64,000 nt of DNA from Stagnihabitans lacustris (GTDB lineage Bacteria > Pseudomonadota > Alphaproteobacteria > Rhodobacterales > Rhodobacteraceae), in assembly GCF_025950525.1 (NCBI RefSeq), contig NZ_JAPDGS010000009.1, positions 1 through 64,000 on the forward strand, read 5' to 3'. Every line of letters begins with the position of its first letter. The first letter of the stretch is position 1. Below the pieces are notes generated by a model that saw only the letters and a list, made by a program, of their open reading frames with translations, did no database searches and was not told the DNA's origin. The translations under genes were made by a program, and so were the position numbers. Shown one piece after another: positions 13,855 to 49,339 of this stretch.

Positions 13855-13890
13855 AAAGGCGCCCCGGGTCAAACCGGGGCGCCTTTTCTT
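13855..13890 (+). terminator. Strong intrinsic terminator after rpmD
   Basis: A perfect 13-bp GC-rich stem (AAAGGCGCCCCGG / CCGGGGCGCCTTT) with loop GTCAAA, followed by TCTTTA. It separates rpmD from rplO, genes that are adjacent in the canonical spc operon. Confidence 0.92.
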
Positions 13891-29300: not shown

Positions 29301-29328
29301 CCGGGGGAGGGGCAAGCCCCTCCCCCGG
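29301..29328 (-). terminator. G-rich palindrome at the 3' end of the sixA-like gene
   Basis: Perfect 13-nt arms (CCGGGGGAGGGGC / GCCCCTCCCCCGG) separated by AA. Read on the minus strand it follows a GGGGTGGGGGTCC stretch and resembles the element after rarA (22280-22323). It lies about 95 nt past the minus-strand gene's stop. Confidence 0.5.
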
Positions 29329-43482: not shown

Positions 43483-43559
43483 GGATCCGTAGCTCAGTTG
43501 GATAGAGCATTAGACTACGAATCTAAGGGTCGGGCGTTCGAATCGCTCCGGGTCCACCA
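43483..43559 (+). tRNA. tRNA-Arg (anticodon ACG)
   Basis: A 77-nt cloverleaf: acceptor GGATCCG / CGGGTCC with one T-G pair, D arm GCTC-AGTTGGATA-GAGC, anticodon stem TTAGA/TCTAA with loop CTACGAA (anticodon at 43517-43519), T arm with GTTCGAATC, and an encoded CCA end. ACG is normally edited to ICG by TadA. Confidence 0.97.
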
Positions 43560-43564
43560 CTACC

Positions 43565-43598
43565 AAAGGGCTGGTCGAAAGACCGGCCCTTTCGTTTT
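43565..43598 (+). terminator. Terminator after tRNA-Arg
   Basis: A 12-bp stem with one T-G wobble (AAAGGGCTGGTC / GACCGGCCCTTT), GAAA tetraloop and a following TCGTTTT. Confidence 0.9.
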
Positions 43599-43655
43599 GC
43601 ATCGCGTCCGGGCGCGGTCGCAGATTAACCTGCGGTTGAGTGTTTTCGTTGCAAG

Positions 43656-44933
43656 ATGCCCGCGCGCCGACTAGCCTTGGCGACGGAATTTCACATGTGC
43701 GCCCCGTTTCAAATGTTCACCGGCCAAATCAAAGACGCTTTCCTGATTGACGCCCAGTCCGGGCCCGATGCCTTGCGCTGGAAAAAGCGCAAGGTCCTGA
43801 ATGCCCTAAGGGAAACCTTCGGCATGGAGGTGGCCTTCATCTCGCGATTCGAGGCCGGGGATCGGGTTTTTGACGAGGTCGAAAGCAGCTTTGACTTCGA
43901 TCCCCCCGGGGTTGCACGCGGGGCAAGGGGGCCGGCGCAGGGCAGCTATTGCCTCCGCGTCCTGGAGGGCGAGGTGCCCGCCCTGATCCATGACGCCCGC
44001 ACGGTCGCTTCGGTGCAAGACATCGCCGCCACAAGGGACTGGCCCATCGGCGCCCATGTCTCGGTCCCGATCCGCCTGTCGAACGGGCGCTGTTTCGGGA
44101 TGCTTTGCGCCTTTGGCCGCAAGCCTGACCTGACGCTGTCGCTGCGCGATCAGGCCATGTTCGAACTCTGCGCCGCCCTTCTGGCCCGCGATATCGAAAC
44201 CTCGGCCCAGGCCGAGGATGCCGACCGCGACCCGCCGCTTCAGGCCGCCATTGCCGCGGGGGATTTCGCCTTTGCCCTGCAGCCGATCTTTGACATGGCC
44301 CGCGACGCCCCCATCGGCTACGAACTGTTCACCCGCTTTGCCCCCGAATTCGGCCCGACCGAAGAGGTCTTTCGCCGCGCCAAATACCTGGATCTGATCC
44401 TTCCCCTGGAGGAGGTGATCCTTCAGCGCGCCCCCGAGGTTCTGGCCCTGATCCCGCCGCATGCCTTTCTGTCGCTGAACCTGTCGGTCTCAACCTTCGA
44501 GGATTTCGACCCCGCGCCGCTTTTGGCCCAGGTGGGGCCCGGCCGCCTGGTGCTGGAACTGACCGAACACGAGCGTGTGGCCGATTACGCCAGCCTGGCC
44601 GCCCGGGTCGCGCGGGCCCAGGCCAGCGCGGTCCGGCTGGCCATCGACGATGTGGGGGCGGGCTATGCCTCGTTCCGCCATGTCATGCAGCTGCGCCCGG
44701 ATATCGTGAAGATCGACCGCGCGCTGATCTCGGGGATCGAGGGCTCGGCGGCGCAGGGCAGTTTTGTCGCGGCGCTGGCCGATTACGCCCGCGCCACCGG
44801 GACGCAAGTCATTGCCGAAGGGATCGAGCGGATCGAAGAGCGCGACTGGCTTTTGGCCCATGGCATCACCTGGGGGCAGGGATATTTGCTGGGCCGCCCG
44901 CAAATGGTGCGGCCGGGGCTGGTCTTGGCCTAG
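43656..44933 (+). CDS. GAF-EAL protein, probable c-di-GMP phosphodiesterase
   Basis: A 425-residue cytoplasmic protein: an N-terminal GAF-like domain (about residues 40-175) and a C-terminal EAL domain. EAL positions are YELFTRF (for EAL), LNLSV, ELTEHE, DDVGAG, KIDRAL, AEGIE and GQGYLLGRP, so metal and substrate residues are largely kept. The start is uncertain: ATG at 43695 or 43713 would trim the unconserved N-terminus. It is transcribed alone after the tRNA. Confidence 0.87.
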   Translation: MPARRLALATEFHMCAPFQMFTGQIKDAFLIDAQSGPDALRWKKRKVLNALRETFGMEVAFISRFEAGDRVFDEVESSFDFDPPGVARGARGPAQGSYCLRVLEGEVPALIHDARTVASVQDIAATRDWPIGAHVSVPIRLSNGRCFGMLCAFGRKPDLTLSLRDQAMFELCAALLARDIETSAQAEDADRDPPLQAAIAAGDFAFALQPIFDMARDAPIGYELFTRFAPEFGPTEEVFRRAKYLDLILPLEEVILQRAPEVLALIPPHAFLSLNLSVSTFEDFDPAPLLAQVGPGRLVLELTEHERVADYASLAARVARAQASAVRLAIDDVGAGYASFRHVMQLRPDIVKIDRALISGIEGSAAQGSFVAALADYARATGTQVIAEGIERIEERDWLLAHGITWGQGYLLGRPQMVRPGLVLA

Positions 44934-44954
44934 GTGCGGGCCTATCTTTGACGC

Positions 44955-45293
44955 ATGACCCGGTGGATGCGCCTTGTTGCGGCCCTGCTGATCGGCGTTC
45001 TGGCCTTTGCGCCGGTTCTGGCCGCTGCAGCCCATTGCGCCAAGATGACCGCCCCATTGCACCACGCCATGACCCATACGGGGGAACATCAGGCTGGGGC
45101 GTTTCAAACCGGGGCGCCGCAGGATGCCGGCCATGCCCTGCATCAGGCCTGCAAGATCCATTGCCAGATGGCCGCCGTGATCTGGCCCGCCGCGCCCGTG
45201 CCCGCCCGTGCGGTCACGACCTGGCCCCGGCCCGCGCTGGCCCTTGCCGCCTCGCGCATCACCAAACCGGAATCTCCGCCCCCCAAGGCCTGA
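44955..45293 (+). CDS. His/Met/Cys-rich small exported protein
   Basis: A 112-residue protein with a signal peptide (MTRWMRLVAALLIGVLAFAPVLA) and a mature region dense in possible metal ligands: His27, Cys28, Met31, His36, His37, Met39, His41, His45, His60, His63, Cys66, His69, Cys70, Met72. It precedes a multicopper oxidase by 37 nt, so periplasmic copper binding is a reasonable inference. I cannot assign a named family. Confidence 0.7.
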   Translation: MTRWMRLVAALLIGVLAFAPVLAAAAHCAKMTAPLHHAMTHTGEHQAGAFQTGAPQDAGHALHQACKIHCQMAAVIWPAAPVPARAVTTWPRPALALAASRITKPESPPPKA

Positions 45294-45330
45294 CGGAACC
45301 CCGTCCCGTCACCCTTTACAGGAGGCCATG

Positions 45331-46722
45331 ATGCCCCAACTGACCCGCCGCGGCTTTATCGCCAGCGCCGCTTGCCTTGCCCTTTCTCCCCGTCCCGGCC
45401 TGGCCGCCACCCACAGCCTGACCGCCACGACCCGCGTCCTGGACATCAACGGCCGCGCGGCCACTGTCCTTGGCCTGGTCGATGCCCAGGGCCGCCCCGG
45501 CCTGACGCTTGACCCCGGCGCGCGGTTTGCCGTCGACCTGACCAATGCGCTGGACATGGAAACCCTGATCCACTGGCATGGCCAGATCCCGCCCAATGCG
45601 CAGGACGGCGTTCCCGGGATGCCCGCGCCCCTGCTGCGCCCCGGCGAGACGCGGTCCTATGACTTTGCCGCCCGCCCGGGCACGCATTGGATGCACGCCC
45701 ATATCCCCGCGCAAGAGGTGGGCCTTCTGGCCGCCCCCCTGATCGTCCGCGAGGCCACCGACCGGCAAGAGGTCACGCTTTTCCTGCATGATTTCTCGTT
45801 CACCCCGGCCGAAGAGGTCCTGGCCACGATCACCGGCGGCATGGCCATGGCGGGACATGACATGGGCGCGATGGATATGGAGGGGATGGGTCACGACATG
45901 TCCAAGATGGGCGGCATGGCCATGGACCTGAACGATTTCGACTTTGACGCCTATCTGGCCAATGACCGCACCCTGGATGACCCGCAGGTCGTGACCGTCG
46001 ATCCCGATGCCGAGGTCCTTTTGCGCATCGTCAACGCGGGCTCGGCCACGGTCTTCTGGATCGACACCGGGGCGCTGACGGCGACGGTTTTGGCGGTGGA
46101 TGGCGAAAAGGTCCAACCGCTGACCGGCACCCGCTTTGGCCTGGCGATGGGGCAGCGGCTGGACCTGGGGCTGAACATCCCACGCGGCGCCCATCCGATC
46201 CTGGCGCTGCGTGAAGGCGCAGTCGAGCGGACCGGGATCATCCTGGCCACGCCGGGGGCCAAGGTGGCCAAGGTCGCCCCGACCGGAGACCTGACGCCAG
46301 GCTGGAGCGACCTGACCCAGGAAAGCGCGCTGCGTGCCCTGGTGCCCCTGACGCCCCGCCCTGCCACCCAGACGCCGATGGTCATGCTGGGCGGGCAGAT
46401 GATGCCCTATCGCTGGACGCTGGATGGCGCGGTCTGGGGCGACCACAAGCCCTTGCGGGCGACCTCGGGTCAGCGGGTCGAGGTCATGTTCCACAACATG
46501 TCGATGATGTCCCACCCGATGCATCTGCATGGCCACAAGTTCCAAGTGGTCGACACTGGCGCAGGCCGCTTTGCCGGTGCGCTGCGCGACACGGTGCTTG
46601 TGCCGCCCATGGGCATGGTGACGGTGGCGCTGGACGCCGGCGAGGCCGCGTCCTGGATGCTGCATTGTCACCACATGGCGCATCTGGCCACGGGCATGAT
46701 GACCGAGTTCATCGTGAGCTAG
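45331..46722 (+). CDS. Multicopper oxidase, Tat-exported (CueO/CopA-like)
   Basis: A 463-residue MCO with a twin-arginine leader (TRRGFIASAACLAL). The copper sites are complete: HWHG (81-84), HAH (122-124), HPMHLHGHKF (395-404) and HCHHMAHLATGM (445-456), the last with the type 1 ligands. A Met/His-rich insert at 171-200 resembles those of cuprous oxidases such as CueO and PcoA. Second of two tandem ATGs is chosen for GGAGG spacing. It likely oxidises Cu(I) in the periplasm. Its stop overlaps the convergent ATPase stop (CTAG). Confidence 0.92.
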   Translation: MPQLTRRGFIASAACLALSPRPGLAATHSLTATTRVLDINGRAATVLGLVDAQGRPGLTLDPGARFAVDLTNALDMETLIHWHGQIPPNAQDGVPGMPAPLLRPGETRSYDFAARPGTHWMHAHIPAQEVGLLAAPLIVREATDRQEVTLFLHDFSFTPAEEVLATITGGMAMAGHDMGAMDMEGMGHDMSKMGGMAMDLNDFDFDAYLANDRTLDDPQVVTVDPDAEVLLRIVNAGSATVFWIDTGALTATVLAVDGEKVQPLTGTRFGLAMGQRLDLGLNIPRGAHPILALREGAVERTGIILATPGAKVAKVAPTGDLTPGWSDLTQESALRALVPLTPRPATQTPMVMLGGQMMPYRWTLDGAVWGDHKPLRATSGQRVEVMFHNMSMMSHPMHLHGHKFQVVDTGAGRFAGALRDTVLVPPMGMVTVALDAGEAASWMLHCHHMAHLATGMMTEFIVS

Positions 46723-48587
46723 ACCTTGATCCGCAGCGCCCGCAGCGCGTTCAGGATCACGGCGACGTCGATGGCCTCTTGCGCAAGTGCGCCCTGCACG
46801 GGCGACAAGAGGCCAAAGGCTGCTGCGACCTGGCCCAGCAGGGACAGGCCGATCCCCGCCGCCACGCTTTGCAGCGCAATCGCCCGAGCGCGGCGCGCGA
46901 CGGTCAGCCCGCCTGCCAGCGGCTCCAGCCGGTCCACCAGCAGAACGACATCCGCCGCCTCTGCCGAGGCCGCAGCGCCCCGCGCCCCCATGGCCACGCC
47001 CACATCGGCGGCGGCCAGCGCCGGGGCGTCGTTGACCCCGTCGCCCACCATCATCACCGGCCCGCGCGCCCGTTCCTCCGCCACCAGCGCCAGCTTGCCC
47101 GCGGGCGTCAGGTCGGCATGGACCGCGGTCAGCCCCAGCCCCTCGGTCAGCCGCGCAGCCACCGCCGCCCGGTCGCCCGTCGCCAGCACGATGCGGGCGA
47201 TGCCGCCCTCGCGCAGGTGGCGCAGCAGCGGCCCCACCCCCTTGCGCAGCGGATCGGCCATCACCAGCCGCCCCGCCGTCTTGCCCCCCACCGCAACCGA
47301 GACCGTGACCGCGCCGGGCTCCACCCCCGCAAGCGCCAGTTGCCGCCCGGTGCGCGCGGCCACAAACGCCTCGCCGCCGACCAGCACGTCCTGACCGTCC
47401 ACCCGGCCCGCGACACCTTCGCCCGCGAATTCCTGCACCTGTTCGGGCAGGGGCAGCACCAGGCCGCGCGCCCGGGCCTCGGCCACGATGGCCTGCGCCA
47501 TCGGATGCGTCGAGGCCTGATCCAGCGCCGCCGCCACCCGCAAGACCCCCGCAGCATCGCCACCGTCCAGCACGTGAATGGCGGTGATCTGCGGCCGCCC
47601 CTCGGTCAGGGTGCCGGTCTTGTCCAGGATCAGCGTGTGGATGCGGGCCATGGCCTCCAGTGCGGCGGCGCCCTTGATCAGCACGCCCAGTTGCGCCGCC
47701 CGGCTAAGCCCCGCAACCAAAGCCACCGGCACGGCCAGGATCAGCGGGCAGGGCGTCGCCACCACCAGCACCGCAACAGCCCGCACCGGATCGCCCGTCA
47801 GCCCCCAGGCCGCGCCCGCAATCGCAAGGCTAAGGCCCAGGAACCCCAGAGACCAGCGGTCGGCCAGCCGCGCCATCGGCGCCTTGGCCGCCCCGGCTGC
47901 CTGCACCATCCGCAGGATGCCGGCATAGGTGCTGTCCGCCGCCGCCCGCGTGGCGGTCAGGTCAAAGGCCTCTCCGGCATTGGTCACGCCGCTCATCGTG
48001 GCCTGACCTTGGGACAGACGGCGGGGCAGGGGCTCTCCGGTCAGGGCAGAGGTGTCCAGCATGGCCATCGGGCTGGCCAGGGTGCCATCGACCGGCACCG
48101 TGGCGCCTTGGGCGATCAACAAAAGGTCGCCGGGGCGGATCGCGTCCAGCGGAATATCCTCCAGCGCGCCGTCCTTGTGGCGGGTGGCGGTGCGGGGGAC
48201 GCGGGTCAGCAGGGCTTCCATCTCGGCCCGGGCGCGCGCGCTGGCGAAGGATTCAAGGAAGGTGCCGCCGGAATACATGACCGCCACGACCGAGGCCGCC
48301 AAGGGCTCGCCAAAGGCCAGGGCCGCCGACATCGACAGGGCGGCGAGGATATCAAGCCCCACCTCTCCGCGCGCCAGGCTGCGCAGGATTTCGACCACCA
48401 GGGCGGCCAGGACGGGCAGGGTGGCGGCTTGCCAGGCCAGAGGGGCCGCGGGCTGGCCCCAAAGCGCCAGCCCCGCCAGCAATCCGGCGAGGGCGATCAA
48501 CAGCAGGGCGGTTTTCAATTGGTCGGCAGGATTGCGCGGCAAAGGTGGCTCCGGGTCAGGTCGGTCCAGCTTGGCACGGAAATGCAA
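46719..48587 (-). CDS. Heavy-metal P1B-type ATPase with TPC motif
   Basis: A 622-residue P-type ATPase: actuator TGEP (183-186), membrane metal motif ATPCPL (TPC at 278-280), phosphorylation DKTGT (322-326), STHPMAQAI and GDGVNDAPAL. No N-terminal HMA domain is present. TPC replaces the CPC of copper and zinc exporters, so the ion is uncertain. A TTG at 48542 has GGAG 6 nt upstream and may be the true start; the ATG at 48587 abuts a hairpin and lacks a ribosome-binding site. Convergent with the multicopper oxidase. Confidence 0.9.
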   Translation of the reverse strand: MHFRAKLDRPDPEPPLPRNPADQLKTALLLIALAGLLAGLALWGQPAAPLAWQAATLPVLAALVVEILRSLARGEVGLDILAALSMSAALAFGEPLAASVVAVMYSGGTFLESFASARARAEMEALLTRVPRTATRHKDGALEDIPLDAIRPGDLLLIAQGATVPVDGTLASPMAMLDTSALTGEPLPRRLSQGQATMSGVTNAGEAFDLTATRAAADSTYAGILRMVQAAGAAKAPMARLADRWSLGFLGLSLAIAGAAWGLTGDPVRAVAVLVVATPCPLILAVPVALVAGLSRAAQLGVLIKGAAALEAMARIHTLILDKTGTLTEGRPQITAIHVLDGGDAAGVLRVAAALDQASTHPMAQAIVAEARARGLVLPLPEQVQEFAGEGVAGRVDGQDVLVGGEAFVAARTGRQLALAGVEPGAVTVSVAVGGKTAGRLVMADPLRKGVGPLLRHLREGGIARIVLATGDRAAVAARLTEGLGLTAVHADLTPAGKLALVAEERARGPVMMVGDGVNDAPALAAADVGVAMGARGAAASAEAADVVLLVDRLEPLAGGLTVARRARAIALQSVAAGIGLSLLGQVAAAFGLLSPVQGALAQEAIDVAVILNALRALRIKV

Positions 48588-48617
48588 CGGCGAGGTTGAT
48601 GAATATCAACCTCGCCG
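48588..48617. promoter_or_regulatory. Perfect palindrome upstream of the P-type ATPase
   Basis: 13-bp arms (CGGCGAGGTTGAT / ATCAACCTCGCCG) around GAAT, touching the annotated ATPase start codon. It could be an operator for a metal-responsive regulator, a terminator for the VPLPA-CTERM gene, or both. No regulator gene is adjacent. Confidence 0.5.
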
Positions 48618-48652: not shown

Positions 48653-49339
48653 TCAGGCCTTGCGGCGACGCAGGGCCGCGATCCCGGCGATACCAGCCAA
48701 CAGCAGCGGCGCCGAAGCGGGCACCGGCACGGTCGGGACGGTGCCGCCAAGCTCTGCCTCGGTCAGGGCGCCGTTATAGACCTTCACGTAGTCCAAAGCA
48801 CCGGCCGAAGCCTCGCCCTGCCTGGTCACGAAGTCGTCTTCGACCATGACGAAAGTGCTAAGCGCCCCGGGAAGGCCCGTGCCGCCCGCCGGAGCAAAGC
48901 TCCACTGCAAGGCGCCGTTCACATAGCCCTTGGCGGTGGTGCCGTCATAGGTCAGCGCGGCCACGAAATCCGTCGCGGCCAGGATGGTGATCGGGCTGAC
49001 GAAAGCGACGTTGTAGTAGTTCAGCGTGCCGCCCAGGTTATAGAACCCGTTGTCGCTGCCCAGACCCGACAGGTCGATCAGCTTGCGATAGCCGTTGGTC
49101 TCGCCGATCTGGCCTTTGAAGACGATGGACCAGGCGGTCAGGGTCGACCCAAGGGAAACGGTCAGGCCCTGGTTCTTGGCAAAGCTATACAGACCCGAAC
49201 CCACGGTGCCGGAGCCAGTGGCCGTGGCCGTCCCGGCGTTGGTCAGGCCGGAGGCGAAGGTGAATTCGTCGGTCAGCGTGGCGGCCGAGACCGGCAGGGC
49301 CAGGGTCGCAAGCAGGGCAGTCAAAGAAAGAAGGCGCAT
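48653..49339 (-). CDS. VPLPA-CTERM sorted surface protein with LamG-like domain
   Basis: A 228-residue exported protein: signal peptide (MRLLSLTALLATLALPVSA), a concanavalin/LamG-like beta region (GYVNGALQWSF, DYVKVYNGALTEAEL), and a C-terminal sorting signal VPVPASAPLLLAGIAGIAAL followed by RRRK. The VPLPA-CTERM tail directs processing by an exosortase-type enzyme, whose gene is not in this window. Such proteins are often linked to extracellular matrix. AAGGAACC precedes the ATG. Confidence 0.87.
   Translation of the reverse strand: MRLLSLTALLATLALPVSAATLTDEFTFASGLTNAGTATATGSGTVGSGLYSFAKNQGLTVSLGSTLTAWSIVFKGQIGETNGYRKLIDLSGLGSDNGFYNLGGTLNYYNVAFVSPITILAATDFVAALTYDGTTAKGYVNGALQWSFAPAGGTGLPGALSTFVMVEDDFVTRQGEASAGALDYVKVYNGALTEAELGGTVPTVPVPASAPLLLAGIAGIAALRRRKA

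Follow-up and report, generated by a model that had tools for sequence, protein, structure and literature searches.

A TPC-type metal ATPase with a predicted FnrL box probably forms a module separate from a neighbouring CutF-CutO copper system in Stagnihabitans lacustris

Introduction

A TPC motif assigns P1B-type metal ATPases to the P1B-5 subgroup. Here we consider one such ATPase, whose gene lies tail to tail with genes for a small exported peptide and a multicopper oxidase at positions 44955–48617 of a 64,000-nucleotide stretch of Stagnihabitans lacustris DNA (referred to below as the window). The described system closest to the ATPase is Nia (SMa1163) of Sinorhizobium meliloti, the one P1B-5 gene given among the P1B ATPases of that species, with Ni2+ and Fe2+ as its substrates (PMC4932525) and a role in detoxifying excess Fe2+ in nodules (PMC3923141); a hemerythrin domain is found at the C-terminus of only some P1B-5 members (PMC9388753). 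For the peptide and the oxidase it is the CutF-CutO(-CutG) system of Rhodobacter capsulatus, where CutF has a CxxxC motif and a proline-rich C-terminus and the ribosome site of cutO is hidden by a stem-loop (PMC9973294, PMC8456105). For the control of the ATPase gene it is the FnrL regulon of Rhodobacter sphaeroides, in which the FnrL target is TTGAT-N4-ATCAA, sites at fnrL/hemN and hemA are listed targets, and the heavy-metal ATPase is RSP0690, listed among the cbb3/rdx genes (PMC2908626). In addition, clusters of PepSY, DUF2271 and ApbE genes with VIT1 have been linked to iron reduction and assimilation (eLife 2021, PMC8238504).

The initial annotation had treated all three genes as one copper-handling set, with a different metal as an alternative for the ATPase. 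For the peptide and the oxidase the copper reading is supported, as they have the CutF-CutO layout; for the ATPase we come to a different view. We put at roughly two in three the probability that the region is made up of two independent modules meeting tail to tail, namely CutF-CutO and an FnrL-controlled exporter of Fe2+, perhaps also of Ni2+.

Results

The ATPase belongs to the Nia clade and lacks a hemerythrin tail

The ATPase gene lies on the minus strand at 46719–48542, encoding 607 residues from our preferred TTG start at 48542, and is convergent to the oxidase gene, the stop codons of the two overlapping. As had been noted before, the protein is a P1B ATPase with TPC and without an N-terminal metal-binding domain; TPC, whose cysteine is C280, stands in the metal-site helix, as for P1B-5, and DKTGT and GDGVNDAP are also seen. 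It matches the Pfam domains PF00122 and PF00702 (E1-E2 ATPase and HAD) and scores 481.9 bits against the P1B heavy-metal subfamily model TIGR01525 (cut-off 346.25). Against the Cu model TIGR01511 it reaches 300.2 bits, below the cut-off of 397, and it has neither the CPC motif nor the Cu-clade position of the P1B-1 copper ATPases.

Its nearest studied relative is a TPC ATPase on pSymA of S. meliloti 1021 (L123:7526-9319), to which it is 55.8% identical over 599 residues and which is probably SMa1163 (Nia). The matching protein of S. meliloti RCAM1750 has a PF01814 hemerythrin tail, the pSymA and RCAM1750 tails being equally long, and Pfam also finds the domain in all five other long-tailed members scanned. 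In a tree of 49 rows picked from a larger set, with a single SPC reference and with support from a quick method only (the Shimodaira–Hasegawa-like approximate likelihood-ratio test, SH-aLRT), all 36 TPC rows split from the 12 CPx rows and the SPC row with a value of 100, and 25 tail-less rows, the window ATPase among them, form a group with Nia at a value of 97. The window ATPase thus shares with Nia the TPC motif, the lack of an N-terminal metal-binding domain and a sister position in the tree, but it lacks the C-terminal hemerythrin domain: it ends at LRIKV, with no such tail by Pfam, and near its C-terminus Q603, E604, I606 and D607 are invariant in a 32-row alignment. On this placement in sequence, the protein may be predicted to transport Ni2+ and Fe2+. 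The clade also lends support to the earlier suggestion of a different metal, as it lies outside both the Cu+ and the Zn/Cd clades.

The longest reading frame of the ATPase starts at TTG 48587 and would give 622 residues, but TTG 48542 is the better start. A Shine-Dalgarno-like CGGAG at 48553–48549 precedes it, the start layout is similar in a congeneric genome (G002), and residues 1–17 of the structure model have a predicted local distance difference test score (pLDDT) under 50. The model overall has a pLDDT of 81.7 and a predicted template modelling score of 0.68, and its fold neighbours are generic P1B ATPases. The 3′ half of the gene (46700–47899) has about 75% G+C, against about 61–70% around it.

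An exact FnrL box lies upstream of the ATPase gene

A script-based search found an inverted repeat with two perfect 13-nucleotide arms and a 4-nucleotide spacer at 48588–48617. It had been described before as a perfect 30-bp palindrome at the ATPase start; the arms are indeed perfect, but the spacer, GAAT, is not palindromic, and the repeat lies upstream of the start rather than at it. The repeat is more than expected by chance, because three repeats with arms of at least 13 nucleotides and spacers of 0–10 occur in the window and none in any of six shuffled windows; the other two, also perfect, are at 13855–13886 and 29301–29328. Its core, TTGATATTCATCAA, is on the minus strand an exact FNR/FnrL box (TTGAT-N4-ATCAA) at 48596–48609, centred 60.5 bp before TTG 48542. 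A class II activator site sits at −41.5, and a box in that position would put the start of transcription near 48561, 19 nucleotides before the TTG. The box, predicted from sequence, suggests that FnrL may activate the ATPase gene.

Six exact boxes occur in the 4.05 Mb genome, and none in a backward control. The genome encodes an FnrL equivalog (449 bits, cut-off 300), and one exact box lies between its gene and hemN, another before the gene for 5-aminolevulinate synthase (hemA), so that the exact box, the regulator and the boxes at fnrL/hemN and hemA are all shared with the R. sphaeroides regulon (PMC2908626). Of the remaining three boxes (L117, L120 and L121) one stands before an HlyD-type gene, one presumably within a flagellar region, and one has no clear target gene. 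As for RSP0690, we take it to be a CcoI/FixI-type pump and not a TPC pump. In G002 a weaker box-like core, TTGACCTCTGTCAT, is kept at 68 bp from the start, compared to 67 bp here, and the long arms are gone.

We looked for such boxes, and for gene partners, at 102 related ATPase loci: 9 on plasmids, 13 further loci and, out of 129 confirmed ones, the best 80. They are not independent of one another and have flanks from about 1.5 kb to at least 6 kb; we excluded duplicates, loci in which fewer than 310 bp precede the gene, and matches that begin only beyond residue 80. Relaxed boxes are found within 300 bp before 7 of the 102 ATPases, against an expectation of 0.73 calculated from the remainder of these loci. 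Matches to a matrix derived from 25 published FnrL sites lie upstream of 11/66 stand-alone ATPases and 0/36 of those in VIT/DUF2271/ApbE loci, compared to 29/1923 random windows. In two of the neighbourhoods (L049 and L056) there are several strong sites of the FnrL type close to genes other than the ATPase.

VIT genes, and not cutF or cutO, recur beside related ATPases

Neither CutF nor CutO is found near the related ATPases in any of the 102 loci. In 26 of them a gene for a VIT (ferrous iron) transporter follows directly downstream on the same strand, and in many of these VIT loci the ATPase is preceded by a two-component system, PepSY, cytochrome b561/ferric reductase, DUF2271, a PepSY flavoprotein and ApbE. 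The operon PepSY, b561/ferric reductase, DUF2271, PepSY flavoprotein, ApbE, TPC ATPase and VIT can be read at L110–L113, L030–L033, L037, L039 and L042; it occurs on Rhodobacterales chromosomes and plasmids, some of the latter typed as conjugative, often with a two-component system beside it. A different picture is found at L096:9138-13562, where a hemerythrin-tailed TPC ATPase lies near a Crp/Fnr regulator, a COX3-like gene and a VWA gene, clusters that each recur in three loci; we take this neighbourhood to resemble a nitric-oxide-reductase cluster. Relatives of the window ATPase thus sit in flavinylation clusters of the kind described in PMC8238504, unlike the window locus, which has none, and the term “P-type ATPase” is not mentioned in the available text of that paper. 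Among the matches listed in literature searches, none combined DUF2271, PepSY, ApbE, a P-type ATPase and the VIT family, and “P1B-5” appeared in none of those for P1B-5 plus FNR.

Of 15 other genomes in the genus, all 15 have the oxidase family and 3 have the ATPase. In seven relatives with both (G001, G002, G014, G021, G031, G055 and G099) the two are never adjacent. Gene order in the congeneric G002 matches that of the window from a point ahead of a histidine kinase gene as far as FtsK, by way of the ATPase and a VPLPA-CTERM-like gene, except that the EAL, cutF and cutO genes are missing. Homology to it by blastn ends at the end of a tRNA-Arg (ACG) gene (43483–43559, plus strand) and is picked up again at 46728, the two points being about 50 bp apart in G002, and the difference is either an insertion here or a loss there. 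The block begins straight after the tRNA (43483–46728) and consists of cutF, cutO and, ahead of them, a GAF-EAL protein gene (43656–44933, plus strand) that is absent from the same place in G002 and does not itself belong to the copper function. On the other side, upstream of the ATPase and on its strand, is the gene for a VPLPA-CTERM protein with a LamG-like domain (48653–49339).

The peptide and the oxidase have the CutF-CutO layout

The initial annotation had proposed an exported His/Met/Cys-rich peptide and a complete Tat-exported multicopper oxidase, both of which we find. The peptide, CutF-like and 112 residues long (44955–45293, plus strand), has a hydrophobic Sec-type signal (judged by eye), a CxxxC motif (CKIHC) and a Pro-rich C-terminus (ESPPPKA), and lies directly before cutO, which is the CutF layout. 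Its match to DUF2946 (PF11162) is 20.6 bits, under the gathering score of 23.7, and a PF11162 search of the whole genome did not return its reading frame. The oxidase (45328–46722, plus strand, 464 residues) matches Pfam Cu-oxidase_2, Cu-oxidase_3 and Cu-oxidase, i.e. all three Cu-oxidase domains, and in its sequence can be read the twin-arginine stretch TRRGFI of a Tat-type protein, a Met-rich insert and the Cu-ligand motifs typical of such enzymes.

A Sec-type CxxxC peptide and a Tat multicopper oxidase with a Met-rich insert are shared with R. capsulatus; the CutF C-terminus is PEPEGPPPRL there and ESPPPKA here, and the gap before cutO is 40 bp there and 34 nucleotides here (PMC8456105). 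In our case the gap (45294–45327, plus strand) has a Shine-Dalgarno AGGAGG at 45320–45325 and a candidate stem-loop. Unlike in R. capsulatus, the stem-loop covering the Shine-Dalgarno is not above shuffles, and cutG is absent after cutO, where the convergent ATPase gene comes next. Among 30 CutO loci fetched, a CxxxC reading frame lies just upstream in 15 (the window locus, another 12 distinct loci and 2 duplicates), none does in 11, and 4 could not be judged; an xPP[KR] ending recurs in these CutF-type frames.

Discussion

We envisage the two modules as working apart. In one, a P1B-5 ATPase of the Nia clade without a hemerythrin tail would be controlled by the FnrL box in its promoter, acting as an activator site at low oxygen, and would most likely move Fe2+, possibly Ni2+ too, out of the cytoplasm as anaerobic growth raises ferrous iron. 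In the other, exported CutF would sense periplasmic copper during its own synthesis and so permit the translation of CutO, which, by analogy with R. capsulatus, would oxidise Cu(I).

Several observations weigh against this picture. On the side of the regulator, the G002 site has a score of 13.4, lower than the 14.9 of the weakest site behind the matrix, no FNR box, exact or relaxed, was found in the 900 bp preceding Nia on pSymA, and under a stricter control, which takes the regions upstream of the other genes at these loci, the excess at ATPase genes is modest (8/58 versus 23/516, p 0.008, for rows that are related). On the side of the metal, no VIT gene lies beside the ATPase in the window, the full-length VIT of the genome being on contig C14, and the ATPase passes the NCBIfam Cd-family model TIGR01512 (435.9 bits, cut-off 313.5). 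Nia is filed under P1B4 in PMC7762939, and since its deletion in S. meliloti CCNWSX0020 left tolerance to Cu, Zn, Cd, Pb and Ni unchanged (PMC4932525), Nia’s own role is unsettled. As for CutO, the unpaired value of its Shine-Dalgarno in the window is 0.23, compared to 0.23 in shuffles, and accessibility is clearly below shuffles in only 2/13 CutO loci.

What else might the ATPase do? That the three genes form one copper-stress set, with the ATPase exporting copper or feeding CutO in co-regulation with CutF-CutO, is to us very improbable. They are direct convergent neighbours with overlapping stop codons, and CutO maturation in R. capsulatus needs the Cu ATPase CopA (PMC8456105), but the protein has TPC in place of CPC and stays outside the Cu clade and below the Cu model, and the genome also encodes CPC ATPases, of which one groups with FixI and another with the Cu rows. 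We therefore reject a copper role for it, because of its clade, because the copper neighbourhood recurs at none of the related loci, and because of the synteny with G002, where the ATPase stands without the block. Nor do we favour a Zn2+/Cd2+/Pb2+ exporter of the P1B-2 type with an odd motif, which seems quite improbable. It would agree with the TIGR01512 match and with the ZntA structures (4umw/4umv) among the nearest folds of the model, but Cu pumps are equally present there, and ZntA, CadA, PbrA and the genome’s own ZntA-like protein lie across the branch with an SH-aLRT of 100. Though it passes TIGR01512, the ATPase has neither the CPC nor the ZntA/CadA-clade position of P1B-2, and since the S. 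meliloti TPC and hemerythrin protein passes that model too (476.6 bits), a Zn/Cd role read from it is rejected. The initial annotation had proposed placing the ATPase by phylogeny and had named a firm position in a known Zn/Cd subgroup, together with no copper response of the cluster, as an outcome that would tell against it; the placement obtained is not firmly in that subgroup.

Two further alternatives concern the metal within the clade and the repeat. It is unlikely that an ATPase of this clade would here transport mainly Mn2+, Co2+ or Ni2+ rather than Fe2+. VIT-family partners elsewhere can handle Mn. For Nia, Ni has been reported alongside Fe (PMC4932525), but the FnrL box and the flavin/ferric-reductase operons point, indirectly, to iron. 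Unlikely, too, is the repeat serving the upstream VPLPA-CTERM gene only, as its terminator or a hairpin, with a chance match to FNR: it lies about 36 nucleotides past the stop of that gene and its arms are 13 bp long, but we found no terminator-like site, which leaves this reading unsupported; the exact box is one of so few in the genome, and G002 lost the long arms and kept the box-like core at nearly the same spacing.

Returning to the FnrL-controlled exporter, we would tentatively extend it to its relatives. It is possible, if clearly short of even odds, that the hemerythrin-less P1B-5 ATPases form a branch that exports ferrous iron and whose oxygen control has shifted from the fused hemerythrin to the promoter, namely to FnrL at stand-alone genes and elsewhere, including on plasmids, to a flavin-reductase/VIT operon beside a two-component system; the window gene would then be an FnrL-switched member. 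P1B-5 is a poorly characterised subgroup of which few members, Nia among them, have been studied. This locus drops the copper reading for the ATPase, being a clear example of how the neighbourhood in a single genome can mislead about function, and offers a testable alternative in FnrL oxygen control and a ferrous-iron substrate. The recurrent ATPase-VIT-flavinylation operon, carried in part on conjugative plasmids, makes the substrate of P1B-5 ATPases directly testable.

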